Shown: positions 10,947 through 48,500 of the stretch, in pieces
How the letters are laid out: the number at the start of each line of letters is the position of its first letter
Position numbering within the stretch: the first letter of the stretch is position 1
Origin: Terebella lapidaria
Lineage: Eukaryota; Annelida; Polychaeta; Terebellida; Terebellidae
Assembly (NCBI GenBank): GCA_949152475.1
Contig: OX424556.1
Coordinates: 13,760,664-13,824,663, forward strand
Direction: 5' to 3'
Length of the DNA stretch: 64,000 bases
The notes under the pieces: generated by a model
Database searches by the model: none
What the model saw: only the letters and a program-made list of their open reading frames with translations
What the model was told of the DNA's origin: nothing
Made by a program: the position numbers and the translations under genes

Positions 10947-11306
10947 CACAACCACAGGGCGGCGTGGATCAGACTGAGAAGGGCTATGGCTCCAGTGCTG
11001 ACGCCCACATGCCCCTGTCCGGCAATGTAGGTTACCATGACAACCACAGGGCAGTGAGGTTCAGGCTGAGAGCGGCTATGATTCCAGTGCTGCCGCCCAC
11101 AGCCCACTGTCCGGCTATGGTGTTACTATGACAACCACAGGGCGGTGAGAGTCAGGCTGAGAGCGGGTATGAGTCCAGCACTGGCGCCCACAGCCCCTTG
11201 TCCGGCTATGGTGTTACTATGACAACCACAGGGCGGTGAGAGTCAGGCTGAGAGCGGGTTTAGTCCAGCACTGGCGCCCACAGCCCCTTGTCCGGCTATG
11301 GTGTTA
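10947..11306 (-). repeat. 91-bp tandem copies of the terminal exon of the adjacent surface-protein gene
   Basis: Four head-to-tail copies, spaced 91 bases (starts near 10947, 11038, 11129, 11220), repeat the last part of the coding exon that ends at 11307. Each carries ACCATAGCCGGACAAGGGGC through the hydrophobic GPI-signal codons and, in the nearer copies, the TAG stop. Divergence increases away from the gene. They lie directly 3' of the true stop, so they would sit in the 3' untranslated region or flank. Confidence 0.85.
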
Positions 11307-12912
11307 CTATGACAACCATAGGGCGGTGAGAGTCAGGCTGAGAGCGGATATGAGTCCAGCACTGGCGCCCACAGCCCCTTGTCCGGCTATGGTGGTCCCG
11401 CTGTCATCGGAAGTGGTCGTCTCAACACTCGGATCAGTCGTCGTATTATGTCCCTCCGTCGACAGCTCGGGTGCGTCCGTCGTCGACTCTGGGCCGCAAT
11501 CTATTGGCAATAAAATAAATATGTATGAACCAAAATACACAGGATCAATGTCAAATGGACATTTCAAACCTCATAAATTCAGGTCAGAGCTAAGACTGTA
11601 TGACACTGACTGGGGATGGCCTTGCGGCAATAGACGTTCCTCTGCTGGCCGGGAGTGGCCGTGGACCAAATCCAGCTGGCGCCTTCGGCTATGCCCGAGT
11701 AGGAGCCCGGGAAGAAGCGATCGGGCAGTACCACGGCTGACGTCCAGGCCGAGTCGTCAAAGTCCGCCTCCGTCCAGCCCGTCACCTCGGCGTTGTTGCA
11801 CTTCCATGTGGTATCGGTGACGTAGCTGACGTGGCTATTGCTGAAGGAGGCCAGCATTCCGCCCACGAAGCCCACGTCGACACAGTGTATGGCGGCGACC
11901 CGCGGGCACTGCGCCACTGTGAAGGTTGACACGTCAGTCGAGGTATCGCTCTCAGCCCGCAGCGTGCCGTCCGTGTAAAACTGCATACGATCGTCACATG
12001 TCGCCGCAAACTGCAGCGGCTCTGCACAATCATACAAATCATTCAATAAATCGAACTAGATCTACCGAGGACTCATTCGATTGAGTATATTTTTCTTTTA
12101 ATTGACTCCATATATTATTAAAAAAAATTTAGTATTTATTTCATAAGGAGAACTGTTGGATTTCATATTGATATCGATCTCGTCTTGAAAGAAGACTTCA
12201 ATAAGGTGCCGGACTTCAAACTCGCAAGTTATTAAACCGAAGTATATTCCTGAGAAAGCATGGCTTACAGTATATATGGCCACATGTCACGTGCCTATAT
12301 CATACGAGGATTCACGTGAAATGTAATTAGTAACAATTAAAGGGAGATGGTTTTCTAATCACTTTTACATGACCAAATTATAAGCATGTTATACGTCAAG
12401 GTCACATAAACAGAGATCTTGTTGAATCAGGATGTTAAAAAATAGATACTGGGTATTTTTTTTAATAATGAGGGTCACGTTTTCCTCATACATGTAGGCC
12501 TATACCCATGATATTTTCCTTTTTCTGATTCATATATTTTGACCATTATCATGGAAGATAATTCACAAATGAATAAATCTGTTATAGAACCCAGGTTATA
12601 GACATGGATTTGATCAGATAGTTCAAATGAAGCATTAAATGACGTAAAATTCTTCATAACGTAGCTAGATCAAACAGCGGTTTGTTTGAAGCAATGATAA
12701 AGTCGTTTAGGCACACTTTAAATATCACAGAAACATGGTTCCATTTGTTTGAATCTATCCTTAATCGTTATGATTTTGTATTATAAAAATTACCATAAAA
12801 CCTGGCATTAATAAAACTAATAGTATCTTTGAGTATTCTACATACCACAGTGTATTTGAGTAAGCATCGATCCTATAATAACAGCTAGGCAGGGCAACGA
12901 TAACAACTCCAT
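11307..12912 (-). CDS. Secreted, probably GPI-anchored surface protein with a galactose-binding-like fold
   Basis: Three coding exons (12846-12912, 11611-12021, 11307-11500) join in phase to give 223 residues. Exon 1 encodes a textbook signal peptide (MELLSLPCLAVIIGSML, ending near TQIHC) and its ATG directly follows a good acceptor. Exon 2 encodes one Cys-containing domain of about 137 residues. Its WTEADFDDSAW motif is typical of galactose-binding-like beta-sandwich domains, and it ends with a W-rich stretch and CRK. Exon 3 encodes a Thr/Ser-rich stalk followed by a hydrophobic C-terminus (ALSLTLTALWLS) without a basic tail, the pattern of a GPI-attachment signal. Donors and acceptors are GT-AG, all in phase 1. 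I do not know the family name; the ligand is unknown. The fold and GPI calls are inference from motifs. Confidence 0.8.
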
Positions 12913-13036
12913 CTTCAGGGAAGAAAACACATCGAGATACCATATAAAGTGTGTCAGTGAACATAATAAATTTTTAAATTAAAAATACAATAAACTAAAT
13001 AAAATATCAATATAGAAATTTTTAATAATGTCTTAC

Positions 13037-13132
13037 CTTATGCGCTTGTTGTTGTAATATTTAAATTCCTCTGTGTGTTTTCATTCCACGATCCGATCTA
13101 ATGGAGCTGGGTTCTCGGATTCCTTTATATAT
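13037..13132 (-). promoter_or_regulatory. TATA promoter and 5' noncoding exon of the GPI-anchored protein gene
   Basis: On the minus strand an AATATATAAAGGA TATA box lies at 13123-13132. About 30 bases downstream begins a sequence that ends in a consensus donor (AAG then GTAAGA) at 13036/13037, with no coding start fitting it. The signal-peptide exon at 12912 starts right after an acceptor, so a noncoding first exon is required. The transcription start (about 13095-13100) is inferred from TATA spacing. Confidence 0.6.
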
Positions 13133-13139
13133 TGGCCTG

Positions 13140-14983
13140 TGAAGTTTTTACTTCATGAATAAACATGAGCAGGACACGGTGCGGTTATCAACCATGTGAT
13201 CATCAGCGCGCGCCCCCACAGCCATGACTAGATAGATAATTGTTACTATTTTATTCTGAAATCACTGTAGATGTTAAGCATTGATATTATTACCACAATA
13301 CCCACATCGACATGTACCGGTATAGCAAAATAAACAAACAATTTTAGTTTCAATAGTTAAGTTTTCCAGAAAGTTTACACGCACTTGCGTTTTAGCCTTG
13401 AAGGTACACAGACTTACCTTGTTTATCCCGCGTCCGATAAAATCGCGTTGTTCACAATGGGTGCAAGATGAAGTAATTTTTATTTCAGGAAATGCTTGTG
13501 TCATTCACTAAAATTAACTCGATAAGTAATATCCTCGTACTTTCCCCGGGGTTGTCGGGGGTGGGAGGGAATTGGAAGGGTTGGTTTTGTGGCTTTGTAT
13601 CCTGTATATTCACCTGGTACTAGTATAATATTATAATTCACCACTTTGTTATCTTTCATCCAACTGTCATGTATATAATTTTATACCATCCGACATTATC
13701 CGTTTTCTGTCATATGTTCGTGTTTTACCAGTATAATTCTATCACAAAGCATACATCTTGTTATCGGTTGCCAAATAAATCAAATCAAATCAAACCAAAG
13801 CTGCAGTTTTGTTCTGTAGTCATCCAACAGATGACTCATTTCCCAGGTGGGTTCCAAAATATAATGGAAACTACATGTAATTACATGTATAGCTGGACCT
13901 TTCACGGTCATGTGGTCTTCACGAGACTCCAATTCCACCAGCATCACACACGGGCCATATTTGGAAACTATCCATGCAATAATAGCTATAATAATATCCA
14001 CAGATGTAGCGACATGACTTGGGCATCTATGGTGGCATGGAGCAACGAATGGTAGGCCTATACGCAATATGAGCGGAGTATATATGTGAACTAAAAATCA
14101 ACATAATCCATCCTCTTGAGATTCTCTGTCTGCCCATGTATTGTTTTAGTTGAGTACAATACTTGATATAACCGAGGAAAAGATAATTGTTTTCCCAATA
14201 ATAATGTCAAGGTTATAGATGTAAACAGATAGGCCTATAAATGTACTAATGTGAGCGGACCGACTCCCGAGAGTGAATTCATACGTATTTTTCAGTACTT
14301 GATGACCTCAATCACACACGGATATTGTTCCTGTTTATAATACGAAATTGATCCCCACAATATACCATGTATAAAATCATGTATCCCATATCAAACGAGA
14401 AAAATTAAGTGAATACAATGTAGATACACTTCGTGAAGAAAGTGAAGAAATATGTTGAATCTTATGTTGAATATACCGTGTATAATCGCATATAAACCCT
14501 ATTTTATGTAGCAAATTGCAACAGACATTTATGTCGTTAATTGATAACCAATATGCCATTTCGATAGACCGTGATATGTAGAGGCTCGGAAAGTCCAGTG
14601 CACTCGTGTTCCCTTTCCAGCCGACCGTACACGAGCCGACCCTTATGTTGCCTGGAGACGAGGCCCACTGCGTCACACAATGGTTCAAATCTGTCAGGCC
14701 CAACCTTGGCTCTGATCCTACATTGTCAAATACCAACCATTGTCCGATCATTTATCAAATATACTCGGCTTTATTGTAGCTGGTTGCTGAATAGCATGTG
14801 ACCTGCAAATAATTGATCGTTTTTTAGGTTTGCAACAAAATACATGTATATATATGCAATACCCATATTAACAAACAATATTCACTTTGTACCGTTGCTA
14901 TTAACTCTCAGCACTTGGATAGATTATATTTGTGTAAAAGTGCAATTATAAAATATATCCAGGTATGAGTCTAGATCTTCTCG
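13140..14983. other. Intergenic, no gene recognised
   Basis: Short open frames occur on both strands, for example minus 14377-14751 (124 codons) and plus 13669-14055. None has a recognisable domain, signal peptide or splice context. No ordered repeat was seen. Confidence 0.4.
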
Positions 14984-15096
14984 ATATTATATTATATTAT
15001 ATTATATTATATTATATTATATTATATTATATTATATTATATTATATTATATTATATTATATTATATTATATTATATTATATTATATTATATTATA
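14984..15096. repeat. (ATTAT)n microsatellite
   Basis: An uninterrupted pentanucleotide run of about 22 copies. It ends in ATTATAG, 17 bases before the ATG of the LRR gene, and could itself supply the pyrimidine-poor acceptor of a 5' UTR intron. Confidence 0.95.
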
Positions 15097-15113
15097 GGTG
15101 TAGTTTGCCTGGC

Positions 15114-18100
15114 ATGGACAAGAGTCGGCTGGCACCCGGAGGTGGAGGGGGAGTCAGGGGTGAGACACATAGAGAGTCACTCCGCCCCGGGGGCACGACC
15201 CCGTACGCCGACCTAGAGAAGAACCAGAAAAAGTGCACAGAGGAAGAGTTCGACTTTGACCGTGAGTCGCGTCACTGGCGTGAGATAAACTTTCATGACT
15301 GCTTTCATTAAATTTCTACCAATCCACGATAATTTGGGACCATTAGAACCAATGAGCTCATTGATTAGAAGCATATTATTCGCTCGCATGACACATATCG
15401 TGTGACTCAATCCTCGTGAATTCAATTATCGCGTACTGCTAAAAAACAAAACTGGATTTATAAAAGCCACAATGTTTTCAAATACTTGAATTATTGTACA
15501 TATATAATAATAATATAGTAATCTTTTTATTGTGCAGTATTATTACATGTGTATGCATGGATCACATCTAGAGATGATAGAGTCTACTGAGTCATTTTGC
15601 GTCGTGTCTAAACACACGCGTGAATACGTGACAGTATTTTTGAATAAGTAAACACATGAGTATAATTCTGAAAACGTATTACTGCGTTTAATCTGGTCAT
15701 TTTTCCATGCATATATTGTTATTATAACCTATACGAACCCCAATAAGAGCCAAACATTTATTCAACATCATTTGTATTTACAATTTATTCATTTTGCTTT
15801 CGTGACACATATTTTTTCCTCGAAGCAACGTTCACCAAACATGTTCCAAAAGTGTCAACAAACTGGAATTCTTTTGAATTGTTTCACAAACACCATTAAC
15901 CTTGGTAAATATTCAAGTCCTTGAAGTGACATCAGTTTACACCAAAAGACCTATGCTGACTCGCACCATACATACATGTATATGACAGAGTATGTCTAGA
16001 ACTAGCTATACACTGTATATGTATTATAACACATACAATGGTTAAAGTACAAATAATAATATTTGAGAAATCTCTGTCGGAGAGACAGACCAGAGAAAGG
16101 CCGGCCCCGGCGGGTGAGAAATATTTGAACATCAGCAAATGGCAAAGTGACCTGACTGTAAATTTTTTTTACTTCAGTTGGTATTCTACATTCACGAATA
16201 CTGGTGATTTTTTACACTAATATTTCATCAAAATGATGTATATTAGGGGGAATAGAAGCATCCACACGAGCTCGACTCATGCACCCATTCAATGCGCTGA
16301 ATTTTGAAATTCCTCTGATTAATTCAAAACTTCTGAATTAAGAATTACAAGTAAAAACGACGAGACAGTATTTTGCTGGAATTTGTGTGAACTACTGGTG
16401 AAAAAATAGAATAATTTTGGAATAATAAAAAAGAAGTGTTACAAGCTTCAATTTCTGTTCTTTTTTTCTCGAAATTTCAGCAAATTTAATCGATTCTAAA
16501 AATAATTTTATATCAAAAACATGCGCCGGATTTGTTGATAAATGGACAATATTTCAGAAACATCTGCAGTCTGCAGAGGCCAATTTACAAAGTTCATGTT
16601 AAATGTGACCGTCAGATTCACCTATCCAGGTGGAGGTCTTTTACAATGTCACCAAACAGCCATCATATATGACTTCCTATATGCTCTTAATACAAACCTA
16701 AGCACTATCCACAAGAGTTTTGTCTGCAGAGGCCAATTCACACATTTCAGGTTAGATGTGAGCTTGCGAGTCGAGGTCAAGGTCACCAATAGATTCACCG
16801 TACATGACTTCCTATATGCTCATAATATATTTCTAAGCTCTATCTATAATGACTAATGCCTGCACAGGCCAATATACACATTTCAACTCAGACGAGACAT
16901 TGACGTTTACTACTCCAGTTCATCTGAGGTCAAGTTCACTGTCACCAAAAGATCCAATATATATGACTTCCTATATGCTCACGAAACAAACCCAGGCGCT
17001 ATCTACATGCGTTTGGTGCAGAGGCCAACTCACATATTTCAGGTCAAAAGTGACCTTGAGATTTACCACTCAACGTCTTTTTAGGTCAACCTCAAGTTCA
17101 TTCAAAACTCAAGCATACTTTATTCCAGCTCTATCTATAAGATTCATATTTACACAGGCAAATTTACACATTTCAGGTCAGACGTGACCTTGAGATTTAC
17201 CACTCAGGGTCTTCCGAGTTCAGTTTCGATGTCACCAAAAGATCCACCATATATGACTTCCTATATGCTCATAATACAAATCTAAGCTCTATACGCAAAC
17301 GTTCTGTCCCCCAGAGGCCAATTTGTGCATTTCGGCCCATTTTTGGCCTTTTGTGCCTACATTTCGAGCGATTCAATGCCTACCATATTTATACACATTA
17401 CAAATGGCCTAAAATAGCATGCTTGTACATTATAAGAAAAAAGTTATTCCGTCAATTTTTAGAAAATTATTTGTAAAGTTTGAAATTGTGTCACAAAAAT
17501 ATTACAAACCCGGGCCGGACTAAAATTGCTGTTCATGGTCACCATTGACTTTCTATATATGACTCCCCATTTGAAAGTGCCAATATTCCAACTCTTTCTT
17601 ACAGGCTTTAAAGAGTTTACCCAATATAGTTCCCATAACGAAGGCCAACAAAATGTCAATGGCTTTTGTTTTGGCTGAAAAGGGCTCAAAGCAGAGAGTG
17701 ACTTGATTTCGGGTCAATTTTTTTGCCAATCGCTCGAAAAATCAAAATGGCCACCATACGCAGTCCAGCAAATCAAAAGCACCAAACCTATACTTCACGA
17801 GTCCTATGCATAAATTAGGAAAAAACTGTTACGGAACTGACTAGTTTGTTACTGAACAGACGCCACGTCAATAGATAAAAAAAACTGTTTGGTCGTTTCA
17901 ATTAACAATTGATTTTATTGCAAATAGCCATAACTGACCCATGATTCGGGACATTTTGGGTGAAAATGAACCATAATTTCACATGGAATTGCATATTCAA
18001 TCGACAATCACAATTAAGAATTATTTGTTTAATTTTTTCAATTTTCGACACAAAAATAAACATGCTCAGTGATGAATCGAAAAGCATCACCAAGGCTGCA

Positions 18101-21100
18101 TTGTAGATTAAATTTTGTCCGGCAGTGGACGAGTTGATGGCCCCGAAGGTTGTGGAGACGGAGGGTCAGGTGACGTACACACGGGCCTGTAAGCTGTTGA
18201 AGCATCCCCCGGTACATGCCATACACAAGGGTCTGGCCGGCCCCGCCGTCGTCCTTACTAACCACGTCCTCGGCCCGGAAAAGATCAAGGCCCTCGCCAT
18301 TGCCCTCGTCGTGAGTCATCAATCCAGACACACCTGACTCTTATTAAAATTTAAAGATAATTGTATCACATATTTAACAAAGATAATTGTATCACATATT
18401 TAACAAAAAGTGTATATTCTAACACTTTTTTTTGCTAATAGAATTGCCTAAAGTAAAATAATTCGTTCGATTGAACAACGATTTCCTTACCACGAGATAC
18501 GATACCCATACAATATCCATACTCACTAATGTGATTCGTATCCATGGGTACCTCTTTAGAACAACATGGATGTGCAGAAGTTATACATGGAGTCGAACGA
18601 CGCGGGGTCGCGGGGCGCTAGATATGTGTGTGAGATGTTGGAGGAGAACCGCTGTCTCACCGACCTGGTAGGGGCTGGTTAATCGGGACCTGGTAACTCC
18701 GGGTTGTGACAACCAGGGACTTCGTAACTAAACGAACTAGCAACTTGGGCTTGGAAACTAAAGGGACCTGGTGGGGAGGAACTTGGTAACTACGAGGAAT
18801 GGCAAGTGGGAGTCAGGTAATTAAGGGACCTGGCAATTGAGAGAAATGGTAACTATATGTGGCATGAAAAATGGCAGCCTGGTAACTGTGTACCACCTGG
18901 TAAGTGGGGGGGGGGGGGGTGGTAACTATGGTGCATGAAAAGTGGGGTCTGGTAACTATGGGGCATGACAAATGGGGGCTGGTAACTAAAGGATCCATGG
19001 GGCATGACAAGTGGGGTCTGGTAACTAAGGGACCTGGTAAATGATGCTTGGTAACCATGGGGCATGACAAGTAGGGTCTGGAAACTATGAAGCATGAAAT
19101 ATGGGGGTCTGGAACTAAGGGGTCTGGTAAATGAACTAAGGGATATGGTAAATGGGGCTTGGTTATCATGGGGCATGAAAAGTGGGGGTCTGGTATGGGA
19201 CCTGGCAAATGGGGGCTTGGTAACCATGGGGCATGACAAGTGGGGTCTGGTAACTATCGGTCCTGGCAAGTGGGAGCTTGGTAAATAAGGGGCATGGCAA
19301 GTAACCAATGAACAAGTGTGAGTTTACTAGCTTTGGGACCAAAGGCGTTATGCTTTAAGCTCCTGTTAGATATTTACTTAATAACTGGAAGATTTGGTAA
19401 TAATAAGTTCAGTCCCTAAAGGGCATAGTAACTAGAAGCTTGGTAACTAAGGATCTCCTCCGCCCGACCACAGGCTCTGACGTATAACGACATCGGTAGG
19501 GACGGTATGACCTCTGTGTCCGACATGATGCAGATCAACGACCGTCTCACAAAACTCGACCTCTCAGGTGGGTCATCACACTATTGGTGAAGTGGATCTG
19601 AATAGTGCTTGTCACAAATGATGGGATAACTTTTTCTGTACACAGGGAACAAACTGGACGATCTGGACTGTAAACATATCGTCATTATACTGGAGGTAAA
19701 CAAAATCGTGCCTCGGAACTATGATCAATAACAAGGTGTAGGCATACTGTATACTGAGGTATATTGGTCATATTCTAGATTATAGATTGTCAACACGATC
19801 AATATTACAAATAGCTATAATTATTACAGGAGAACCCAATTCTACGTGAATTAAGATTGACGCACAACACTATTCAAGAGAATGGAGCCATTATGATAGC
19901 ACAAGCTCTAGGTGGGTCGGAAACAACACTATTCAAGAGACTGGAGTCATTATGATAACACAAGCTCTAGGTCGGTCTGAAACAACACTAGATAGCAAAA
20001 GCTCTAGGTGAGTTCGAAACAACACTATCCGAGAGACTGGAGCCATTATGATAGCACAAGCTCTAGGTGGGTCCGAAACAACACTCTCCAAGAGACTGGA
20101 GTCATTATGATAGCACAAGCTCTAGGTGGGTCCGAAACAACACTAGATAGCACAAGCTCTAGGTGGGTCCGAAACAACTGTCTCCGAGAGACTGGAGTCA
20201 TTATGATAGCACAAGCTCTAGGTGGGTCCGAAACAACACTCTCCGAGAGACTGGAGCCATTATGATAGCACAAGCTCTAGGTAGGTTTGAAACAACACAA
20301 TCTGAGAGACTGGAGTCATTATGATAGCACAAGCTCTAGGTAGGTTCGAAACAACACTATCCGAGAGACTGGAGCCGGTATGATAGCACAAGCTCTAGGT
20401 AGGTTTGAAACAACACTCTCTGAGAGACTGGAGTCACTATGATAGCACAAGCTCTAGGTAGGTTTAAAACAACACAATCCGAGAGACTGGAGCCATTATG
20501 ATAGCACAAGCTCTAGGTAGGTTAAAACAACACTATCCGAGAGACTGGAGTCATTATGATAGCACAAGCTGTAGGTAGGTTCGAAACAACACTATCCGAG
20601 AGACTGGAGCCAGTATGATAGCACAAGCTCTAGGTAGGTTTGAAACAACACTCTCCGAGAGACTGGAGTCATTATGATGGCACAAGCTCTAGGTAGGTTC
20701 GAAACAACACTATCCGAGAGACTGGAGCCAGTATGGTAGCACAAGCTCTAGGTAGGTTTGAAACAACACTCTCCGAGAGACTGGAGTCATTAAGATAGCA
20801 CAAGATCTAGGTAGGTTCGAAACAACACTATCCGAGAGACTGGAACCAGTATGATAGCACAAGCTCTAGGTAGGTTCGAAACAACACTATCCGAGAGACT
20901 GGAGCCAGTATGATAGCACAAGCTCTAGGTAGGTTTGAAACAACACTCTCCGAGAGACTGGAGTCATTATGATAGCACAAGCTCTAGGTAGGTTCGAAAC
21001 AACACTATCCGAGAGACTGGAGCCAGTATGATAGCACAAGCTCTAGGTAGGTTTGAAACAACACTCTCCGAGAGACTGGAGTCATTATGATAGCACAAGA

Positions 21101-23719
21101 TCTAGGTAGGTTCGAAACAACACTATCCGAGAGACTGGAACCAGTATGATAGCACAAGCTCTAGGTAGGTTCGAAACAACACTATCCGAGAGACTGGAGC
21201 CAGAATGATAGCACAAGCTCTAGGTAGGTTTGAAACAACACTCTCCGAGAGATCGGAGTCATTATGATAGCACAAGCTCTAGGTAGGTTTGAAACAACAC
21301 TCTCCGAGAGACTGGAGTCATTATGATAGCACAAGCTCTAGGTAGGTCCGAAACAATACTATCCGAGAAACTGGAGCCATTATGATAGCACAATCTCTAG
21401 GTAGATCTGAAACAAACAATCCAAGTGATGTCATTATGGTTCGATAACAGCTTAGTAATTACAAATTTGGAGCAAATCTGTTCCCTTCACTGAATTATTT
21501 CGTATCTGGTCAACTACAGTTTTCTCTCCCTTGCAGAAGAGAATGACAGTCTGCTGGTTCTAGATCTAAGCTGGAACCACATCAGAAGGCAAGGTGCACA
21601 AGCACTCGGGAATAGTCTCATAGTATGCTTCTTTTGGTAACACTTGATTACCAACTTTTTAATAAATCTGTGAGATTCGATATCAACACTCAGTAGCGAA
21701 TATTTATTCCACGTTTTCGACAGAAAAACAACACGTTGTTGGAGTTGAATGTTTCTTGGAATGGTTTTGCCGTGGAAGGTTGTAAAGCTCTTGGTAACGC
21801 CCTGCTTGAGAACTCGACACTCAACTCCCTGAATCTCAACTGTAACCGCATCGACATTAAAGCGCTTAAGGAGCTAGTGACGGGAATCAAGGGCAACCAG
21901 ACCCTAGAGGTTCTCAAGGTACGGTATACTCAAGGGTAACCAGTCACACAGGTTCTAAAGGCACTGTATGTTCAATGGTAACCAGACCCTACAAGTCCTC
22001 AAGGTATGGTATGCTCAAGGGTAACCAGAACCTAGAGGTTCTCAAGTTCGCTCAAGGATTACCATACTCTACAGGTTCTCAAGGTACGGTATGCTCAATT
22101 GTAACCAAACATTACATGATCTCAAGGTATGGTATGCTCACATGTAACCAGACCCTACAGGTTCTCAAGTTCGATATACTCAAGGGTAACTTATATACCC
22201 TGCAGGTTCTCAAGGTTAAGTATGCTTAATGGTAACCAGAGCCTACGGGGTTTCAAGCTACGGTATGCTCAATACGGGTTCTCAAGGTACAGTATGCATA
22301 GTGGTAACTGGAACCTACAGGTTCTCAAGGTACGGTATACTCAAGGGTAACCTGAATTTATTACAGATCCTAATGATACGATATGTTCCCAAATGCCAGG
22401 ATATATAGAAGTTCTGAAAGTTGAGTATAGGTGTTTACAATCTAGACCCGGGATTTGTGTGTATTTTGGAAGATCGTTGCTATGAAGTACCTGCATGATG
22501 TACATGTTGGTAACGTTATGATTGTGAACAGCTGTCGGAGAATCCGTTGACGACAGACGGAGCTATGGCTCTACTTACTGCCATAGACAACACTCCCGAA
22601 TCCGCCATCAACGAAATCGACCTGTCTGTGAGTTGAACATCGTCGGTTATGTTTTATAGTTCTTTTTTTTTTACTATGCTCTTAACTGCTGTTGCTCGAA
22701 GATACAAACATGAGTTATAACCTCGATACACGACCAGAGTCAGTCTGTGAGCACTGAGTTCGGACTGCTCCTGGAGCGCCTGAACAAGGACCGCGGGGTG
22801 CGAGTGCAGCATGGCAAGCAGCTGGAAATGGAGATGGCGGAGGAGACGATGGACACGGCCTTCGACCAGGAAGACCCCATGATGGTGCTGATGGAGTTCA
22901 TGCGGCTCCGCAGCCTGCGCCTCATCGACCTCTTCAAAACGCTTGACGCTGATGGCAGCCAGTCGCTGACTCGGGCCGAGTTCAAGTGCGGTCTTCTCGT
23001 AAGTCCTGAAACACGTCATCCTTGATGTGGTAAGACTAATAAATCACTTGATAACGCTGTGAGAGAGGCTGAATGATTTTTGTTGCAGAATGTGAACATC
23101 CCGGTGACAGTAGGAGCACTGGATAGACTCCTGGACAAACTGGACGTCGACGGCGACGGGGAAGTTGACTACGGGTAAGAACACTTCCTCAGGAAGTCGT
23201 CTCTCAATTTCATTCAACAGTGGTGGTCCCCGAGAAATCAATAAAGCATTCTATTTACATTAATACGTCGTGAACTATAGAATATTGACGACAGCAGTAG
23301 TTATATTCGTATAATATACTAAGCAGGTGCAACCCATCATATGATCTTTATGTTGAGTATTTCCATTTGGCGTCAGGGAAATGATACAGGGCCAGAAACA
23401 GCACAAGGCCAAGTTGCACAAGTTGAAGCAGCGTCAGCGGGAGGTGCCTTACGAGAAGACGGACCTCGGCCGCATCAACAGCAAGCTGCGGGCCATTATG
23501 TCGCTGCGGCGCCGTTCCGAGAAGAACCTGGTCGGGGCATTGACCCAAAAGGAGTCCAAGGCGGCGACAGCTAGAGATTCAGAAGGCGAGGCGCTTGACC
23601 TGGTAGAGGAGGAACAGGTCCCTAGAGACCAGGAGGAGGACGGGGTAGGAGATGAGGCGGCGGGTTATGGTGTCGCGGAGAAGGCTGGGAATGGCACAGA
23701 GAGACCGTTTACAGTGTAA
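15114..23719 (+). CDS. Leucine-rich-repeat and EF-hand protein, LRRC74-like
   Basis: Twelve exons, all GT-AG and phase-consistent, give 577 residues: 15114-15261, 18126-18310, 18560-18667, 19474-19567, 19646-19695, 19830-19911, 21537-21622, 21724-21918, 22532-22627, 22738-22998, 23089-23174, 23377-23719. Residues about 60-345 are ribonuclease-inhibitor-type LRRs (for example LLVLDLSWNHIRRQGAQALG, LNSLNLNCNRIDIKALKEL). Two canonical EF-hand loops follow: DADGSQSLTRAE (about 418-429) and DVDGDGEVDYGE (about 454-465), so calcium binding is expected. The tail is basic, then acidic. The LRR plus EF-hand order resembles proteins annotated LRRC74A/B in invertebrates; the cellular role is not established. 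The start is the first ATG in frame after an AG; an extra 5' exon is possible. Three introns hold large minisatellites. Confidence 0.88.
16540..17335. repeat. Degenerate ~145-bp tandem repeat inside intron 1 of the LRR gene
   Basis: TATGACTTCCTATATGCTC recurs near 16667, 16806, 16963 and 17252. GCAGAGGCCAA(T/C)T(T/C)ACA and GTGACCTTGAGATTTACC recur between. About five units are visible. The same words occur around 41050-41340 and, inverted, at 63360-63660, so this is a piece of the dispersed GACCTTGA-type family. The sequence to about 17830, with AAAATGGCC words, probably belongs to it too. Confidence 0.7.
18668..19310. repeat. Degenerate minisatellite with GG(T/A)CCTGGTAACTA words in intron 3 of the LRR gene
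   Basis: Begins immediately after the exon ending CACCGACCTG. About 25-35-base units carry GACCTGGTAACTAAGGG and GGGGCATGACAAGTGGGGTCTGG-like words, with a poly-G run near 18908. The first unit contains the exon-donor junction GACCTGGTA, but units are too diverged to prove that they derive from the exon. Confidence 0.75.
19912..21420 (+). repeat. 59-bp minisatellite copied from LRR exon 6 plus its splice donor (~25 copies)
   Basis: Each unit repeats the last 48 bases of the exon at 19830-19911 (ACAACACTATTCAAGAGAATGG through GCACAAGCTCTAG), then GT(A/G)GGT(T/C)(C/T)GAA from the start of its intron. About 25 copies follow, most with GAGAGACTGGAG. Every copy keeps a donor-like CTAG|GTAGGT but none has the exon's acceptor. 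The 59-base length is not a multiple of three. The array fills most of the intron to the next exon at 21537. Confidence 0.95.
21919..22365 (+). repeat. ~40-bp minisatellite copied from the 3' end of LRR exon 8 (~10 copies)
   Basis: The exon ends GGCAACCAGACCCTAGAGG then TTCTCAAG, with donor GTACGGTATAC. About ten imperfect units downstream repeat GGTAACCAGACCCTAC(A)GG, TTCTCAAG and GTA(C/T)GGTATGCTCAA. The unit thus spans the exon-donor junction, as in the array at 19912. Confidence 0.88.
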
Positions 23720-27212: not shown

Positions 27213-27745
27213 CTATCCCACCATCGGCGCTTCCGCCACATTACCGTCCGCTCCGACCTTGATCCTCACGCGATCTGTTTTGTAGTCCATCGACATCATG
27301 TCATTGACATTGACTACTTGGGTCTGCAAGGAAAGCGAAAGCGTATTATTTAACAAATTTTCATCCATAAACCTACCACTCATATAGCATATTATTATAC
27401 ATGCAACTTGTTGCAATTTATCAAAAAGATGTCTCAATGAAGTGCTCCAATCATAGAGCAGTTTTTTTGCTCTATGCTCCAATGTTGATGCATTTAGATT
27501 CTTGACTTACATTGACGTCGGGTCGATCGGCCTTGACTGCCGCCTCTGCGTCGGCGCCACTCTGTAATGTTCAAAGTGATGTCCACGTGGTGTTACTGGG
27601 ATATATGTATTCCTAATGTTACAGGTTACCTATATGATACGGAAATATACAGCTTCTAAATTATATGCAGACATAGGTACGTGTATATGAAAACAACACT
27701 GACCTTTCCGACAAGTTCGGGCCACTTTGTCTTCTGATCAGCCAT
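27213..27745 (-). CDS. Potato inhibitor I (eglin c / CI-2 type) serine protease inhibitor, copy 1
   Basis: Three coding exons (27704-27745, 27511-27561, 27213-27323; 42, 51 and 111 bases) with GT-AG introns, all phase 0, encode 67 residues. The order is that of the family: MADQKTKWPELVGK with the conserved Trp-Pro-Glu-Leu-Val-Gly, a helix (DAEAAVKADRPDVN), then the reactive loop MMSMDYKTDRVRI and the C-terminal ADGNV...PMVG strand. By alignment with CI-2 (TMEYRIDRVR) the P1 residue is Met (MSM|DY), suiting subtilisin- or chymotrypsin/elastase-like targets. There is no signal peptide, so it is cytosolic or leaves by another route. The length is normal for the family. Upstream lie an untranslated exon and TATA box. 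Confidence 0.92.
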
Positions 27746-28514: not shown

Positions 28515-29701
28515 GCCAGGCCATACCAATATAGGTCACGGGTTCTCATACATGTCGTACATAGTCAGGCCACACAAATTTAGGTCACGGGTTCTTGTAC
28601 ATGTCCTATATGCAGAGTCAGGCCACGCCATTGTTAGACTGGCGGTGCTTGTACCGGACATGGCCAGGCCAAAACAATGTGGCCCATGGGTTGTTGTACA
28701 TGTAATACAAGACATGGCCAGGCCGATACAATGTGGCCCATGGGTTCTTGTACAGGTAATACAAGACATGGCCAGGCCAAGACAGTGTGGCCCATGGGTT
28801 CTTGTACATGCAATGCAAGACATGGCCAGGCCGAGACAATGTGGCCCATGGGTTCTTGTACATGTAATACAAGACATGGCCAGGCCAAGACAATGTAACC
28901 CATGGGTTCTTGTACATGCAATACAAGACATGGCCAGGCCGATACAATGTGTCCCATGGGTTCTTGTACATGTAATACAAGACATGGCCAGGCCAAGACA
29001 ATGTAACCCATGGGTTCTTGTACATGCAATACAAGACATGGCCAGGCCGATACAAGGTGGCCCATGGGTTCTTGTACATGCAATACAAGACATGGCCAGG
29101 CCGAGACAATGTGGCCCATGGGTTCTTGTACATGTAATGCAAGACATGGCCAGGCCAAGACATGTGGCCCATGTGTTCTTGTACATGTAATACAATACAT
29201 GGCCAGGCCAAGACAATGTGGCCCATGTGTTCTTGTACATGTAATACAAGACATGGTCAGGCCAAGACAATGTGGCCCATGGGTTCTTGTACATGTAATA
29301 CAAGACATGGCCAGGCCAAGACAATGTAGCCCATGTGTTCTTGTACATGTAATACAAGACATGGCCAGGCCAAGACAATGTGGCCCATGTGTTCTTGTAC
29401 ATGTAATACAAGACATGGGGAGGCCAAGACAATGTAGCCCATGGGTTCTTGTACATGTAATACAAGACATGGCCAGGCCAAGACAATGTAGCCCATGGGT
29501 TTTTGTACATGTAATACAAAACAATGTCAGGCCAAGACAATGTGGCCCACGCGTTTTTGTACATGTAACACAAGACATGGCCAGACCTAGACAATGTGGC
29601 CCACGGATTTTTGTACATGTAATACAAGACATGGTCAGGCCAAGACAATGTGGCCCACGGGTTTTTGTACATGTAATACTAGACATGGCCAGGCCAAGAC
29701 A
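28515..29701. repeat. 54-bp satellite array (about 22 copies), part 1
   Basis: The units read GACATGGCCAGGCC(A/G)A then GACAATGTGGCCCATG, GGTTCTTGTACATG and TAATACAA. The spacing is 54 bases (for example 28711, 28765, 28819). The first three units are diverged. Because 54 is a multiple of three and the unit lacks stops, long open frames appear on both strands (up to 378 codons). They are 18-residue periodic and best explained by the repeat. The array continues at 30748. Confidence 0.95.
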
Positions 29702-30747
29702 ATGCCATTTCCTGCTTGATTGTCCAAGTAACTCAGATGCGAGACGCATTCTGGCTATAGAGCTTGCCAGCCTCCTAGTACCAGGTGTGCATTATTCATT
29801 GTTTTTGCCAGAATCTACCGATGACAAGAAACATTTTATAAAATGTATTTTACATGGTTTTACTGATCTTTCATACTATGATAATAAGGTTGTATTCAAA
29901 GCTGTTCAACATTTCATTTCTATAACTAAACGCTTCTGAATTGTCTCAATATAAATATATAAAATGTCATTAGTATCCCTTGAAATTGTTTGTAATTCCA
30001 CTGGTGTCCACTGTAAAAAGTTCACTAGTAACGTTATAATATATGATCTGTTCATTATTGTTTATATGTTCATATATTCTGCGCCATACCAGTTGATATA
30101 TATATATATGCGCAGTTTTCATCTTAAAGGTTATTATGAAGTGTATTATTTAGTCGGTGTGGGTACGGTATTTTTTGGCGGGGAAGGCTTGTGCGCGGCG
30201 GCAACACGATATGACTATGCTACTGATTTTAGGCTACGATGACTGATTGGCGTGACCTTGCGTCCATGTCAGTCGGAGTGATTTTATAGAATTTGCGTTA
30301 GTATCTTTCGGATATCGTGCACACATTTTGCAAATTAATAAATGAATCATTTCCGATAACCTTTCTTAGTCCTCTGGCAATTTTTATTATTATTATTTAT
30401 ATTATTATTTTTTGGATGTCTGGATGTGTGTGTATATATCGGTATATTAGTTATAAATATTTTTCTGGGGTGCACGATCTATCACTGTTGAAAGTTGGGT
30501 ATGTATTGTTTATTATTATAACGTGGTAGAACAGACATGTTTGTCTACGGTGCATACCTCCACTGAATACACTATTGTTCTTATATATATATCACCCTGT
30601 ACTCTATGTATTTCAGTTGGAAAATAAATTACTTACTTACTTACTTACTTCCTGCACTTGTTGTACAGAGCACGGAGGAGACCCCCTAGTGGCTACGGCT
30701 ATGGGGAATCCTCCTAAAACAAATAAAGTTTACATTTACATTAAGAC
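29702..30747 (+). mobile_element. LINE 3'-end insertion in the 54-bp array
   Basis: The sequence opens in frame with HFLLDCPSNSDARR and ends TKRF-stop near 29939, a LINE reverse-transcriptase C-terminus (compare HFFLHCP in the LINE at 250-2190). An AT-rich tail follows, ending in (ACTT)n at 30625-30650, then about 95 bases of different sequence ending TTTACATTTACATT. The 54-bp array resumes at once. AAGACAATG occurs at both junctions, consistent with a 9-base target-site duplication. The element is strongly 5'-truncated. The last 95 bases may belong to a second short element. Confidence 0.75.
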
Positions 30748-33266: not shown

Positions 33267-36200
33267 CTACCCAATACTCGGCGTAACCGCCACATTTCCG
33301 TCATAATAGCGATCTTACGTTAATACGGTTACGGATGCGTGAATTCACAACTGAATATATAATCCACCAATGGGCTAGCAAGAAGAGGACGGTCACGGTC
33401 TGATGGCGTTCGTCGTGACCGTCATGTCTCTATTTTCAATGACTAATGAGGACTGAATATGTAAATGCCGTAAGACTTTGTTATCACGCGTGGAAAACTG
33501 TTTAATTTGGGACTGAACTTACATATGAAAACAACACATGAGTACATGCTTATAAGATATATTTCCCACAGATCATTCAAAAGTTAAACTAAAGTTGAAT
33601 GTTTGTGAAGGAAAACATACTTTTCTGTCAAATCATTGAAACAAAGTGTTATACGAAGCATTGCTGATTCATTGTGATGTGATCGATATCAGACTCAAGT
33701 CAGGGAGGTGAGGGATGTTAGCACGTTATTACAGTACTAACTGATTGTGGCCACATGGGTTCCCTCAGACTTTGAATGTACGTGTCAGTGACGAAAAGAT
33801 ATTCGTAATTTTACTCGTGGAAATGGACGCATGTAAAGTATAACATTTCTGATGATCTTGGAGTGGCGAGAGTATTGGACTTGCAGAAGTGTCGTTTTTC
33901 TATGATCATGGTCGAAATTGACATGTTTTTTATCAATATACATATATTAGGTTTATAACTGTAGCATACTTTCCGTTAGGACCCAGCCCCAAAACTTATC
34001 CCGGTGCATACACTCATGTACATGTACGCGTCCCCTTCCACGCTTTAGATTACGAACATTTTCAATGGATGTTTCAAAATTTATAGAACATTGCCGTTTG
34101 ACTCTCTGGTGCATTATGCCAATGTGCACGATGATATTTTTATCCGTTACTGAATCGCGGCCAAAAAGGAGTTTATTCATTGAATTTTGCTCTTTGTTCT
34201 ACGGCATGCATGCCCAGAACGAACATTAGCACCCTGCCAAATGGCATAGAGCGTTGTCCGGCCTAGTTCTTTTGTTTAGGGGTCAGGTCATGTTGTTGTC
34301 AACGCTGTCATGCTAACTTTTTGGCAGCTGATGCCGACACATGGGGAGTAAAGCATTTTTTCTGTAAACTTCTGACCATATTACCTTAGATCGGGGGTTC
34401 GATGCAGGGTAAGAGATACTAATGTACAACTATATGCTGTCTAATTATCCATAAGAAACTGATTTGTTCAGAAATAGGCCCTCGCCCACAGACGTGGTCC
34501 ACAAATATGTAGTGTCCAAACATTGATCACAATGTTTTCAAAACTTATGGCCCATGTACAGCAACACTGTATGAACTGGAGGTGTCAAATACTTCAAACT
34601 TCAATTGTGAGCAATATAAAGGTCTAACGTCATCTAAATAGGGCTCTAATAATTTATTATTGAATCGCTTGTGGCGTGTCAACGCTCTAAGGACGTGGTG
34701 TACGCTCTAAAGCTGCCTGGTGAATGTTTACAGTCTCGATTTGCTTGCAGTAATGGGTAGTCTTTGGGTGGAATATCCAAAACGGGTTCATGGAAACTTC
34801 ACATAAAACGCTTCAGAAAATTGTTACTTGTTCATCAAACAACCAAAAGACATTCCCATTGACTGTTTATACTTCCTGGAGAAGGTATAATAACTTCGAC
34901 CAGATAGCGTTAGAGCGTAGACCATGTCCTTAGAGCGTTGACACGCCAAAAGCATTACAATTATAAATTATTACAGCCCTATTTAGATGACGGTGTGCAT
35001 TTATTTTGCTCACAATTGAAGTTTAGAGTACTTAAAACCTCCAGTTCATACAGTGTTGCTGTACGCGGGCCGTGAGTATCGAATACATTGCGATCAATCT
35101 TTGGACACTACATAATTGTGGGCCACATCCGTGGGCGAGGGCCTATTTTTTAACAAACCAGGCTCCAATGGATAATTGGACAGCACAGGATTATACATTT
35201 GTATCTCACACACTGCATCGAAAACTCGTTCCAAAGTAATATGGTCAGTATTTTACAGAAAAAATATTTTACTCACCATGTGTCGTAATCAGTTCAGAAA
35301 AAGTTCGCCTTACAGCGTTGACAATAACATGACCTGACCCCTAAACAAAAGAGCTGGGTCGGACAACGCTCTATGCCATTTGGCAGGGTGTTAGTGTTCT
35401 TCAACAGTGCAGTTGTTTATATCGGGTGATCATTCCCGGCGCTTTGCACGAGTTGCGCTCATCGAAATTGCCTCATGCATATATTCGTCACATTAGTATA
35501 TTCTCCTCATTGAAAATAGAGACAGAACGGTCACGACGAACGCCATTAGACCATGACCGTCATTTTCTCGCTGCCCCATTGGTTGATTATATATTCAGTC
35601 GTGAAATCACGCATCCGTAACCGTATTAACGTAAGATCGCTCCTCAGACGGTAACGGGCGCCATCATGCCATGCACTCGTACCTGCTCAACAGGTGAGCA
35701 TTCTGTGTGGAGTTGGGTGGAGTGACTGAATTTCATTCTGGATATACTTCATGTGCACAAACATACAGCACATGCGGTTGGTTTATATGCACGAAAACAG
35801 CACAAATATATTCAACGCTTTGCATTTATTTTCAGAGTTTTTATTACAAAACATGTGCATGTTATACGTGTACATGTACAACAATAATAACTGGTTGTGG
35901 TTGGTACACCTGACAGATGATTAATATTTGTAGGTTTGTACACCTGGAGAGGAGTTTATCCTGTAACGGGTGCCCTGACCACCTTTCGATCCTGGTTCAC
36001 CACAATCCAGACCCTATCCTCTCTGTAGTCAGCTGTCACTGCCATCATCGGTCCTATTATCTGTGTCTGATCGAAACATCTATCATTTTAAAGTATCATT
36101 GTGAGGGGAAAAGGGCAATTCATAAAGTCGTTGTCCATATTTGTATTCATGTTTGGAATGTTGAATTCACCGTGACATCGGGTCTCTCTGCTTTGATGAC

Positions 36201-36401
36201 AGATTCTGCTTCTTCCCCCGTCTAAAAGTGCCGTGAAACATACGCGTCTTATCAGAATCAATTATCCAGAGCATGGTGAACGTGAACACTAGATTTGTTT
36301 CTATTTCGTTTATTAAGACAAGACAATAATTGAGTGTTGATATCATTTTGTGAACTCACCTTCCCCACCAATTCGGGCCATGTAGATTTTTTATCTGCCA
36401 T
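33267..36401 (-). pseudogene. Potato inhibitor I gene, copy 2, last exon split by an inserted element
   Basis: Exon 1 (36360-36401, MADKKSTWPELVGK) and exon 2 (36171-36221, TGEEAESVIKAERPDVT) are intact with good donors and acceptors. Exon 3 begins correctly at 35682 (VRVHGMMAPVT) but stops matching near 35646, just before the reactive-site Met expected from copy 3. The rest of the exon, ending in the family's PSIG-stop codons (GNVAVTPSIG when read against copy 3), is found 2.3 kb away at 33267-33306. Between them is an inverted-repeat element. About 30 bases of the exon, covering the reactive loop, are missing at the junction. As read, translation ends soon after APVTV. The gene cannot encode a working inhibitor of the usual length. 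Confidence 0.85.
33307..35645. mobile_element. 2.3-kb inverted-repeat DNA element inserted in an inhibitor exon
   Basis: The ends are mirror images: AGCGATCTTACGTTAATACGG at 33307 and CCGTATTAACGTAAGATCGC at 35620-35640, with similarity for about 175 bases. A second, inner pair of arms (34217-34725 and 34895-35403, about 500 bases, roughly 80% alike by eye) flanks a spacer of about 170 bases. The left half has some 670 extra bases (about 33480-34216) without a partner on the right. No transposase frame is visible. No clear target-site duplication was found, possibly because the exon lost bases. Confidence 0.75.
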
Positions 36402-37072
36402 CCTAGAACAAAGAAAGTCCAGTTTATTAACGAACTCTATGAAATTATGGCAATATGTTTGTTCCATACATTGCGGTTACGGTCCAATGACGCCGGCATG
36501 TGACACTGACTAACGAACTCCTAGTGCTCATGATCATCATGGCGATACAATTATGCTAACGTAGTCATGATGTAAATAAACAACTATTATACATATGCCA
36601 CAATATAGATCTACGTGATGCTGTTATATTTATACATCCGCATACTGTACAAACATACCTCTTAATTTATGTGGATGTCGTGTTTGAAAATTGACTCTCT
36701 GTCAGACGAAGATATAACCACTGCTATAATACTACCATGCGTCGTGTGATGTCCATGTGACCATGTCATCAAATGGTATCACCATGCGGAGAGAGCGAGA
36801 GGAAGGGTTAAGATGGGGGTGAACGCTCAAACGTGGCCTTTCAAATATACCGTGAACGGATAGCTATATTTCATTTTATGGCCCTGTCATACAACAACAT
36901 TTTGATCAGCGTATGTCAACGTTTTCATCTTTCATAGTTCACGGCCGAATATTTGTGAAATTCCAAACAAAAATACTAAAATATAGTTCAAATGAGAGAT
37001 TTTGAAAAAAAAATTGAATTTTCAAAAAAACGCCGAAAATGAAAAAAAAAATGTTTGTAGCCATTCAATTTT

Positions 37073-44701: not shown

Positions 44702-45578
44702 GTTCGACACGAGCGGTTCCATCAGGACGTTGCGACGGCCATCAGGTAACAGCGCGTGAGCTGGTGGAGCTCCTATTCGACACGAGCGGTTCCATCAGGA
44801 CGTTGCGACGGCCATCAGGTAGCAGCGCGTGAGCTGGTGGAGCTCCTGGTCGACACGAGCGGTTCCATCAGGACGTTGCGACGGCCATCAGGTAACAGCG
44901 CGTGAGCTGGAGGAGCTCCTATTCGACACGAGCGGTTCCATCAGGACGTTGCGACGGCCATCAGGTAGCAGCGCGTGAGCTGGTGGAGCTCCTGGTCGAC
45001 ACGAGCAGTTCCATCAGGACGTTGCGACGGCCATCAGGTAACAGCGCGTGAGCTGGAGGAGCTCCTATTCGACACGAGCGGTTCCATCAGGACGTTGCGA
45101 TGGCCATCAGGTAACAGTGCGTGCGCTGGAGGAGCTCCTGGTCGACACGAGCGGTTCCATCAGGACGTTGCGACGGCCATCAGGTAACAGCGCGTGAGCT
45201 GGTGGAGCTCCTATTCGACACGAGCGGTTCCATCAGGACGTTGCGACGGCCATCAGGTAACAGCGCGTGAGCTGGTGGAGCTCTTGGTCGACACGAGCGG
45301 TTCCATCAGGAGGTTGCGACGGCCATCAGGTAACAGCGCGTGAGCTGGTGGAGCTCCTGGTCGACACGAGCGGTTCCATCAGGACGTTGCGACGGCCATC
45401 AGGTAACAGCGCGTGAGCTGGTGGAGCTCCTATTCGACACGAGCGGTTCCATCAGGACGTTGCGACGGCCATCAGGTAACAGCGCGTGAGCTGGTGGAGC
45501 TCCTGGTCGACACGAGCGGTTCCATCAGGACGTTGCGACGGCCATCAGGTAACAGCGCGTGAGCTGGTGGAGCTCCTG
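44702..45578 (-). repeat. 73-bp minisatellite copied from the terminal exon of NUP98 (12 copies)
   Basis: Twelve units at exact 73-base spacing (starts 44703, 44776, 44849 ... 45506) repeat, on the minus strand, GGAGCTCCACCAGCTCACGCG, CTGTTACCTGATGGCC, GTCGCAACGTCCTGATGGAA and CCGCTCGTGTCGA. This is the last 54 bases of NUP98 coding sequence with its TGA stop plus 19 bases of flank. The copy nearest the gene is the true exon end. Units differ by only a few bases, so the array is young or homogenised. Confidence 0.96.
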
Positions 45579-48500
45579 GAGAGCGTAGTCCTCCGGCAAC
45601 GGCAGGTCCGACGTCTCCGTCACCAGCAGTCTGTAACCATGGAAACAAGGTCAACAACAGGCACATCGACACATCTAATACATGCCAGTACCTGGAGGGT
45701 TTTTGGATGTGTTTGAATTTATTGGTGTTACTCACTCGTTGATGTCCTCATCTTCCCGCATCAAGAGGAGTGTCCTCATCAGGTTGGCTGTTCTCTTGGC
45801 CATCTCAGACTTACACAACCTGGCAACAAGGATCAAGTACAACATAGTTAGCAGTGGAGTATATCCAGAAAAATGTGGAGAAGTAGGGCATACTAAGACA
45901 CAGCATTCACTGCAGGGAACCTCGAGATTTGTGATTTGTGTTCCCGAAATTAACATCATTATAATTTATTTGAGATACACAAACCGTGCCTCATATTTTA
46001 ATTCCAAGGTATAACTACCCAAAGTGGTTATAACTGGAGTTAGGGAGATCAGGATAACATGAAAGTTACCTGTCAGTAGCTGTACGACACTCCAGGCCGA
46101 TTATTCGCTTGCTGAGCTGCGACACCTCCGTCTGTAGCTTCTCCAACTCGTATGCACTGGGTTCACTCTGAAACATACACAGGAGATGTACACACAACCC
46201 TTCGTCCACATCGCAAACATTGGTATTGTATTGTGTTTTATCTCTATACCAGGTAATCCTAGAATCTTGACTAGCCCCTGCCCTGACCTGCTGTAGCTGC
46301 TCTAGTGTCTCTATCATGGTGATGTAGTCCAGGTACACCTGGCCACCCTTGTCCCAGTCCTCAATGTTCCGACAGACTTCCGGTGAGCCGAGCTCACACA
46401 GTAGACACTTCAGATCTTCAAAATTGTCTGTGGCGAAGTGCAATACACGATTAGGAATGATTCATACAATTCTTTTAAATAACTGCTCATTGAACAATGG
46501 CAAACTGAAGTTACAAGATTCCATGCAGCACTACAGAGCACTCGGTGAGAGAACACAAGAGAGTAGTAGCACGTTAGCGGTGAGTACAGACCGTTGACGA
46601 TGGCTATAGAGGCGAGGTGTGTGAGGATAAGCTGGTGGGACTTGTTCCACTGCTCGGCTCTCAGCCAGTGCCACGCCTCTTCCTCTCGCAGGTCCAAGTG
46701 ACTCGCGTGTACTGCCTTCAACACAAACACATGAGAAATTTGAACTTGTCCTGTTACAAATACAGGATCGATTTCAGGAATTCCAGACTTCACATAACTG
46801 ACTGACCTTTGCATGATGTATCCAGGACGATGGCACTTTGAGCGCTACCTGCAAGAATTCCTCTCTAGTCTGTGCCTCCTCGTCGCTATGGAGACGAATG
46901 TGCCGCTGTAATAGTTGTCTCACAGAGTGCTCTCGTCTGCAAGACATACATGGAATGATCAGCGTTTGGACACAATCAATTCCACGGATTGGAACAAGGA
47001 AAGAGTTGTGATGTCCTCAGTGTTCAAGCAATCGGTGCGTATTACTCACTGTCTGCTGTCGGTGATGTGAAGGAGGACAAAGACGGCCCAGTGCCAGAGG
47101 CCGAGCTTCTCAAGCTGAGCGGCGTAGCTGGTGGACAGCATGGCCGCGTGGTACTTGGACAGGTGGGTGTACTCCAGCGCCTGTAACACCTGCGACAGCT
47201 GCCAACTGTCACATGAAATACATTTTTTTTCAGTCAAGGTTTCCCAGAACGCAATGACAGTGTTTCATGTATGTCTTTCACGTAGTCAAGCCTTTACTAT
47301 ATCACCAGCATGCCAGACATACCTGAGTCTGAAGTCGAGATGGTTGGGTGTGGCTGAGGTTGGACAGAGCAGGTCATGCAGTGGGTGGCTCCTGTCACAG
47401 TAGAGCCTGACCAGCTGGTAGCACACGTCGGCCTTGCTGGGCGGAGTCTTAGAGTTAACAGGGAGATGCTGGAAGTAGTCAGGCAGCGGGGGCGCAGCAT
47501 AGCTGCCCTCAGCCATGTCTGCCTGGTGAGATCTGTTGTAGGCAGCCAACGCCTCATGTATTGTGGCCATGGGTGGGCAATGGTACCTGTTTATGATAAT
47601 GTTCAGGGTAAATTATGACTAGTTTTTGAATCAAGAATCCACAGGTCACTGACAATTCAAGAATCTACACAGATTGGATATGTGTGGTTGGATATCATGC
47701 CATGAGGTAACAGCTGTTAGAGTCAACTTACCAGAGGTGGACAGCGAGGGCACGTTTCCAGTCCAGATCCTGACAGGTATTGACTCGCAGACCATTGGAG
47801 GTCGTCCACACCATGTTGCCCGAGAGTAAAGCGTAGATCCTCAGTCTGTCCTCGTCAACAAACTCATCCATCTACAAACAGCCAGCAACCGCTTGATCAA
47901 TACATGGTACAGCTTGATTTATATATGGTACAGCTTGATCAATACATGGCACAGTTTGATCAATACATGGTACAGCTAAATCAATACATGATACAGCACA
48001 GAGTACAGTTTGATTAATACACGGTAAAGCTTGATCAATATATGGTAAAGCTCGATCAATACATGGCACAACTTGATCAATACATGGCACAGCTTAAATC
48101 AATACATGGTACAGCACAGAGTACAGTTTGATCAAAACATGGTACACTGTACAATAGATTGCACAAAAGAACAACAACACAATTTCATTCCTGTTTCTTC
48201 CCAGTTCATTCCAAACTGGAACAGCACAATTTGCCATGCTAACAACAAGACATTGAAAGTTTGACTGGTGGCAGTTCCCATGTGTACCTGAGACTGTTCC
48301 CACATGGCCAGCTGTTTCTGGACCATGCCACGACACATGTCGGTGCTGGAGGCCTGTGACAGGAGTAAAGCCAGGCGATGGTCACCTTTGTCCTGGGCGA
48401 CCTGGCATGCTGTCTCCAGCTGGTGACCGCTTAGGTGCTGGAAAATCATCGCGGCCTCGCCCTCAGTCTGCACATGGTCATAAACGAAAAGGACTCGGTG

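Follow-up and report, generated by a model that had tools for sequence, protein, structure and literature searches.

Why should the minisatellites of several genes lying in one stretch of 64,000 nucleotides (hereafter, the window) begin inside coding sequence and extend from there only in the downstream direction? In the first-pass annotation this arrangement was taken as the sign of a genome-wide process, for example one linked to transcription or based on the copying of RNA; were the claim of direction true genome-wide, a mutational process with polarity would be indicated. The analysis presented here favors, with a probability of roughly 0.75, the premise that these are mirage-type minisatellites, which arise and turn over as ordinary minisatellites do, while selection retains those placements that leave the exon intact. 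The polarity seen is the result of geometry, the window happening to contain 3′-edge cases only.

Anatomy of the arrays in the window

TRF and unit-by-unit alignment confirmed that four arrays of the window start within coding sequence and run downstream, the 5′-most unit in gene orientation being coding sequence in all four (Table 1). The accompanying claim that the units cross the 3′ edge of an exon is valid for two of them, the 59- and ~43-bp arrays, which cross a splice donor, whereas the 91- and 73-bp arrays cross a stop codon instead.

Unit 1 of the 91-bp array (11394-11304) is the end of a last coding exon, stop codon included, as indicated by ORF 11307-11570 (minus strand); the gene is called GPI-like from a C-terminal tail read by eye, Pfam giving no match; units 2-5 display 95.6, 97.8, 86.8 and 80.0% identity to unit 1. 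The fourth gene, that of the 73-bp array, ends in exons matching NUP96, with residues 1-139 of 143 aligned on residues 521-668 of a 673-residue chain, and since the alignment reaches to within a few residues of the C terminus, the gene is identified as the NUP96 end of NUP98-NUP96. Unit alignment also revealed that two unit variants mostly alternate in the NUP96 array, yielding a dimeric higher-order unit of 146 bp. On the gene strand an AATAAA is found ~870 nt beyond the 91-bp array (at 10077) and ~660 nt beyond the 73-bp array (at 44040); because stop codons are crossed and AATAAA follows, both the four downstream units of the former and the portion of the latter past the stop codon are probably 3′UTR sequence, so that no exon edge would be crossed by either.

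In the LRR gene, the 59-bp array contains 26 CTAG/GTNR sites, and when five of the window's LRR exon stretches are linked so as to skip the arrays, a coherent LRR protein with four LRR_6 stretches (Pfam) results. A further array, past the donor of another LRR exon (18.7-19.3 kb), had been described as starting at a donor and being diverged; the donor motif GACCTG/GTA is indeed repeated, with three exact copies in 18656-19480 (the exon's own counted) vs. two in the rest of the window on both strands, but the array has nothing longer in common with the exon.

Table 1. Exons and tandem arrays of the window (upper rows) and edge arrays found elsewhere in the genome (last five rows)
Feature	Position	Strand	Basis and remarks
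91-bp minisatellite, 5 units (4.9 copies)	10948..11394	-	TRF, unit alignment
LRR exon whose donor (GACCTG/GTA) opens the most diverged array	18560..18669	+	sequence, exon scan, motif count
Diverged ~30/61-bp array past the donor of the preceding exon	18670..19302	+	TRF rows 18920-19302
LRR exon (ENPILRELRLTHNTIQENGAIMIAQAL)	19830..19911	+	sequence, Pfam, exon scan; last 48 nt = first part of the 59-bp unit
59-bp donor-spanning array, ~25 units, CTAG/GT repeated in each	19864..21422	+	TRF, unit alignment
LRR exon ending ...GNQTLEVLK	21724..21918	+	sequence, Pfam, exon scan; last 32 nt = first part of the ~43-bp unit
~43-bp donor-spanning array, diverged, ~9 units	21887..22344	+	TRF, unit alignment
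73-bp array, 12 units (12.0 copies)	44704..45579	-	TRF, unit alignment; unit 1 holds the stop codon with the ~55 coding nt before it
Last coding exon of NUP96 (NUP98-NUP96), ending ...LHQLTRCYLMAVATS*	45525..45630	-	alignment to solved chains
Intronic 21/42-bp array between NUP96 exons, touching no exon (comparison case)	47891..48146	-	TRF
Donor-side array, myosin-I-like gene, exon ...GTGGCAGCAT/GTGAGT; 44-bp unit with 10 nt of exon, ~156 units	C6:376338-383210		
Donor-side array, upstream exon of the same C6 myosin-I-like gene; 43-bp unit with ~10 nt of exon			
Weak donor-side case in a kinesin; 20 bp x 2.2			
Acceptor-side array upstream of a kinesin exon, unit ...TTCTCAG/TTATGGCCA; 67 bp, ~12 units, the exon being the 3′-most unit	C9:677365-678174		
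Small acceptor-side array, C6 myosin gene; 26 bp x 3.1, ~5 nt of exon only			

Of the 51 exons used, a list compiled by exon scan and reading by eye, none is overlapped by the remaining long arrays (28.7-29.7, 37.1-37.6, 47.9-48.1 and 51.7-52.3 kb); a 29-bp repeat (39105-39133) lies across the 5′ edge of a predicted exon. The first of these long arrays (28657-29704, 54 bp x 19) has several reading frames on each strand that are free of stops for hundreds of codons, but its unit is a multiple of three, so that coding need not follow. The window also contains, all on the minus strand, a potato-inhibitor-I-like gene at 27213-27561 (Pfam PF00280 for 27213-27506) that, with two similar sets of predicted exons (35980-36402 and 38563-39127), probably forms a small tandem family, and the reverse transcriptase remains of a mobile element (PF00078) in several frames at 304-1939.

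That the exon is always the 5′-most unit is true of all four arrays, yet it follows by construction. An array lying over the 3′ edge of an exon has the exon body upstream, so that the true exon is necessarily its 5′-most unit, the mirror image applying to the 5′ edge; thus, the statement “always 5′-most, always downstream” adds nothing to the statement that 3′ edges are involved.

Arrays at both exon boundaries in one genome

A sample chosen irrespective of repeats was obtained by searching the 761.6-Mb genome for the myosin-head and kinesin families and taking exon positions from the matches. Of 100 myosin matches 97 were kept, three in small ciliate-like contigs being dropped, and 118 kinesin matches were used among those listed (at least 151) after removal of the rows from ciliate-like small contigs and of five low-scoring ones; the repeat survey covers the 150 of these 215 matches that were flanked on each side by at least 200 bp. 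In small contigs such as C150, C186, C351 and C414 the kinesin and myosin genes continue across numerous TAA and TAG codons, as is the case in ciliates where both codons encode glutamine, and probably come from a ciliate associated with the animal.

Around the 150 exon matches five edge arrays in three genes were accepted, three of the five in a single myosin gene. Three lie on the donor side, one of them weak; the other two, one of them small, lie on the acceptor side and run upstream. The genes of the window are indeed unrelated, as first noted, and its geometry recurs elsewhere in the genome, with two donor-spanning arrays in the C6 myosin-I-like gene. On the other hand, the contention that arrays extend only downstream is contradicted by those lying upstream of their exon in the C9 kinesin (67 bp) and in the C6 myosin. 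A sixth hit, on the donor side (TRF, C15:27970024-27970063), was judged on visual inspection to be a short coding repeat and discarded, yet is counted in both placement tests described below. At a score of at least 80, no array lay over the match in any of the 30 p450 loci.

The larger C6 array occupies ~6.9 kb and fills its intron up to ~34 bp before the next exon match, so that this myosin intron is almost entirely one 44-bp minisatellite, whose units show 97-100% identity and each contain a splice donor that looks intact. Exact copies of the donor GCAT/GTGAGTAC number 35 in L031 and 33 in L016, two sample loci of this array, whose middle 3.9 kb is covered by sequence matches except for ~30 bp near 380126-380155.

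Placement, splicing and origin of the units

Within the window, the donor/stop side of exons is overlapped more often than expected from placement that spares exons, with four overlaps vs. 0.43 expected for the nine arrays of at least 150 bp (P = 0.0007) and vs. 1.15 for all 25 arrays (P = 0.031); unrestricted placement gives P = 0.016 and 0.084, respectively, and a rate null gives P(≥4) = 0.0008 to 0.0067. However, it was for these very arrays that the window had been singled out and, being the discovery set, its enrichment cannot test the hypothesis that it raised.

The sample displays no such excess. In a test against exon-sparing placement comprising 136 exons (46 matches with internal stops dropped, 24 of the 30 p450 loci included), four donor and two acceptor overlaps were seen vs. 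5.2 and 4.4 expected, and two and one vs. 3.5 and 2.8 for arrays of at least 150 bp; two intron-bearing matches had been split by hand since they held both acceptor arrays, a choice that favors acceptor finds. Since arrays truncated where a segment ends, together with short segments, inflate this null, a rate null was added (180 matches, 68 arrays, nine of them cut), which predicts 1.7, 2.9 and 5.1 overlaps per side at depths of 30, 50 and 90 nt. Against unrestricted placement, four donor, one acceptor and one internal overlap were seen, the last being in reality the small acceptor case, vs. 3.5, 3.4 and 3.3 expected. In the same test whole exons were never spanned vs. 5.5 expected; arrays avoid covering exons, which fits a selection filter.

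As to the side of the exon, no significant preference emerged for arrays near exons; the ratio of donor to acceptor arrays within 100, 200 and 400 nt is 6:5, 11:10 and 15:16 at score 50, and leans to donors at score 40 (13:6, 22:13 and 28:23, with p of 0.17, 0.18 and 0.58). A modest donor bias is possible.

These data bear on the proposal that a process linked to transcription, or polar in some other way, seeds arrays at the 3′ ends of exons and extends them only downstream. It can draw on the fact that four of the nine long arrays of the window lie on the donor/stop side and none on the acceptor side, and on the ratio of seven to two obtained by pooling the window with the accepted sample arrays (two-sided p = 0.18). 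Nevertheless, acceptor-side arrays run upstream, the sample overlaps exon edges no more than random placement does, and identity to the exon unit changes with distance from it in no consistent manner (rho = -0.50, -0.34, -0.67, -0.34, 0.22 and 0.46 in six arrays, none with p < 0.05). With signs so mixed and none significant, a distance gradient was rejected as an indication of growth direction; the exon unit is less similar to the other units than these are to each other in four of seven arrays, and more similar in three. Furthermore, the units hold unspliced exon–intron junctions, which offers no support for copying from spliced RNA, and RNA-templated copying was rejected for want of positive evidence. 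An edge-targeted process was likewise discarded in view of the lack of excess over random placement. The first-pass annotation had itself specified that arrays at 5′ edges as common as those at 3′ edges, or an overlap not above random, would speak against a genome-wide process, and in this small sample of five accepted arrays the outcome went against it. A process of this kind is thus unlikely and, as a genome-wide, exon-directed or transcription-linked mechanism, the proposal is unsupported and not needed by the present data. The narrower version, in which long edge-spanning minisatellites arise preferentially at exon 3′ ends and stop codons by a transcription- or strand-polar process, acceptor cases being a minority, is judged quite improbable; were it true, natural arrays in which nearly identical splice donors compete would number in the thousands in this genome.

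What such competition may amount to can be appreciated from the splice signals, scored with matrices built from 71 donors and 47 acceptors. Each donor array offers many donors of nearly equal strength. The true donor of an LRR exon scores 6.5 bits vs. 8.9 bits for one of its array copies, and at the acceptor-side locus L082 six upstream copies score 9.1-10.7 bits vs. 11.6 for the true acceptor. With up to ~156 copies of one donor, one every 44 bp, in the C6 myosin intron and ~12 acceptor copies preceding the true acceptor in the C9 kinesin, these arrays represent a natural stress test for splicing; how the copy adjoining the exon gets chosen is a question that can be tested directly with RNA reads. 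For those donor arrays that were read, splicing at a wrong copy would lead to a stop codon or a change of frame. Indeed, if the first donor is ignored, an in-frame stop is met 41 nt past the true exon end in the 59-bp array, 18 nt in the ~43-bp array, and 83 and 45 nt in the two other donor arrays read, the last value being that of L031.

The same stops speak against the idea that the arrays are functional cassettes, in which repeated pieces of LRR exons would serve as alternative exons or in-frame extensions; some LRR units do read as an LRR-like peptide (VRNNTIRETGASMIAQAL, exon scan), but none of the unit lengths (59, 44, 73, 43 and 91 bp) is a multiple of three, and this alternative is very unlikely. 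Equally improbable is an artefact of assembly or of the reads, a concern raised by the foreign small contigs present in the assembly and by the circumstance that the arrays were observed in a single assembly; the units differ among themselves in patterned ways, the arrays sit in contigs of 37-101 Mb, and the same structure has been confirmed in lancelets by cloning or resequencing, according to the portions cited of two reports (PMC3087553, PMC3902484).

Finally, the 59- and 73-bp units were found to match only their own locus in a search of the 761.6-Mb genome that skips very common words, as were those of the C6 (44-bp) and C9 (67-bp) sample arrays, so that the units of these four arrays were made in place. 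Insertion of existing dispersed satellites whose ends were captured by exons, of which this search of four units yielded no evidence, can accordingly be regarded as very unlikely, the first unit belonging moreover to a conserved coding exon.

The preferred reading and its relation to known systems

Mirage-type minisatellites subject to a selection filter could originate as follows. A founding short tandem duplication would by chance take in the end of an exon or of coding sequence, and the resulting array would then, as is usual for minisatellites, grow through slippage or unequal exchange and in part become homogenised. Selection would then keep those placements that leave one intact exon and one usable edge, with the true exon as the 5′-most unit of a 3′-edge array or the 3′-most unit of a 5′-edge array, and splicing would continue to take the edge adjoining the exon body.

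Three systems resemble the present one in part. In the tandem genomic duplication model of intron gain, with its potato RdRp case (PMC4974935), a tandem duplication over an intron–exon boundary likewise supplies ready splice signals, whereas the arrays described here stay in existing introns or in probable 3′UTRs. The internal tandem repeats reported at exon–intron boundaries of human genes in segmental duplications (PMC2812944) are similar in that minisatellite variation at these boundaries is able to alter gene structure, but the portion cited deals with variation that arose recently among human paralogs, in which introns are retained or new. Earthworm metallothionein genes have a minisatellite in the first intron (PMC12783039), another case of an intronic minisatellite in an invertebrate gene; unlike the present ones, units spanning an exon edge are not described in the cited part of that report.

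The closest relatives are the lancelet “mirages”, minisatellite-like tandem repeats whose unit, of 10-160 bp, spans an exon–intron boundary and carries splice signals; they are reported at both exon boundaries, occur in Adh3, in the globins BflGb6 and BflGb9, in troponin C and in PGBD5, and are said to leave splicing undisturbed (PMC3087553, PMC3902484). The structure thus has a name, contrary to the earlier impression that no named mechanism exists, although the mechanism itself has none. Judged by their sequence, the arrays match lancelet mirages in anatomy. They are minisatellite-like tandem arrays; the unit spans an exon–intron boundary in the 59- and ~43-bp arrays of the window and in sample loci L031, L013 and L082, and does so weakly in L076 and L006; GT or AG splice signals recur in the copies (59-bp array, L031, L016 and L082); and donor and acceptor cases coexist in one genome. 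Two differences can be noted: in the 91- and 73-bp arrays of the window it is a stop codon, and not a splice site, that the unit spans, and the C6 array, with its ~6.9 kb and ~156 units, is longer than the lancelet cases described in the portions cited of those two reports. As to the host, a family search of the genome gave no match to GFP, which a lancelet would be expected to yield; this leans against a lancelet, although a lack of matches does not prove absence. Haemocyanin likewise gave no match, and C1q gave 55. A limited search of the open-access literature found no report of mirages outside lancelets and, if the host is not a lancelet, mirages would have a wider distribution than that of the lancelet reports found.
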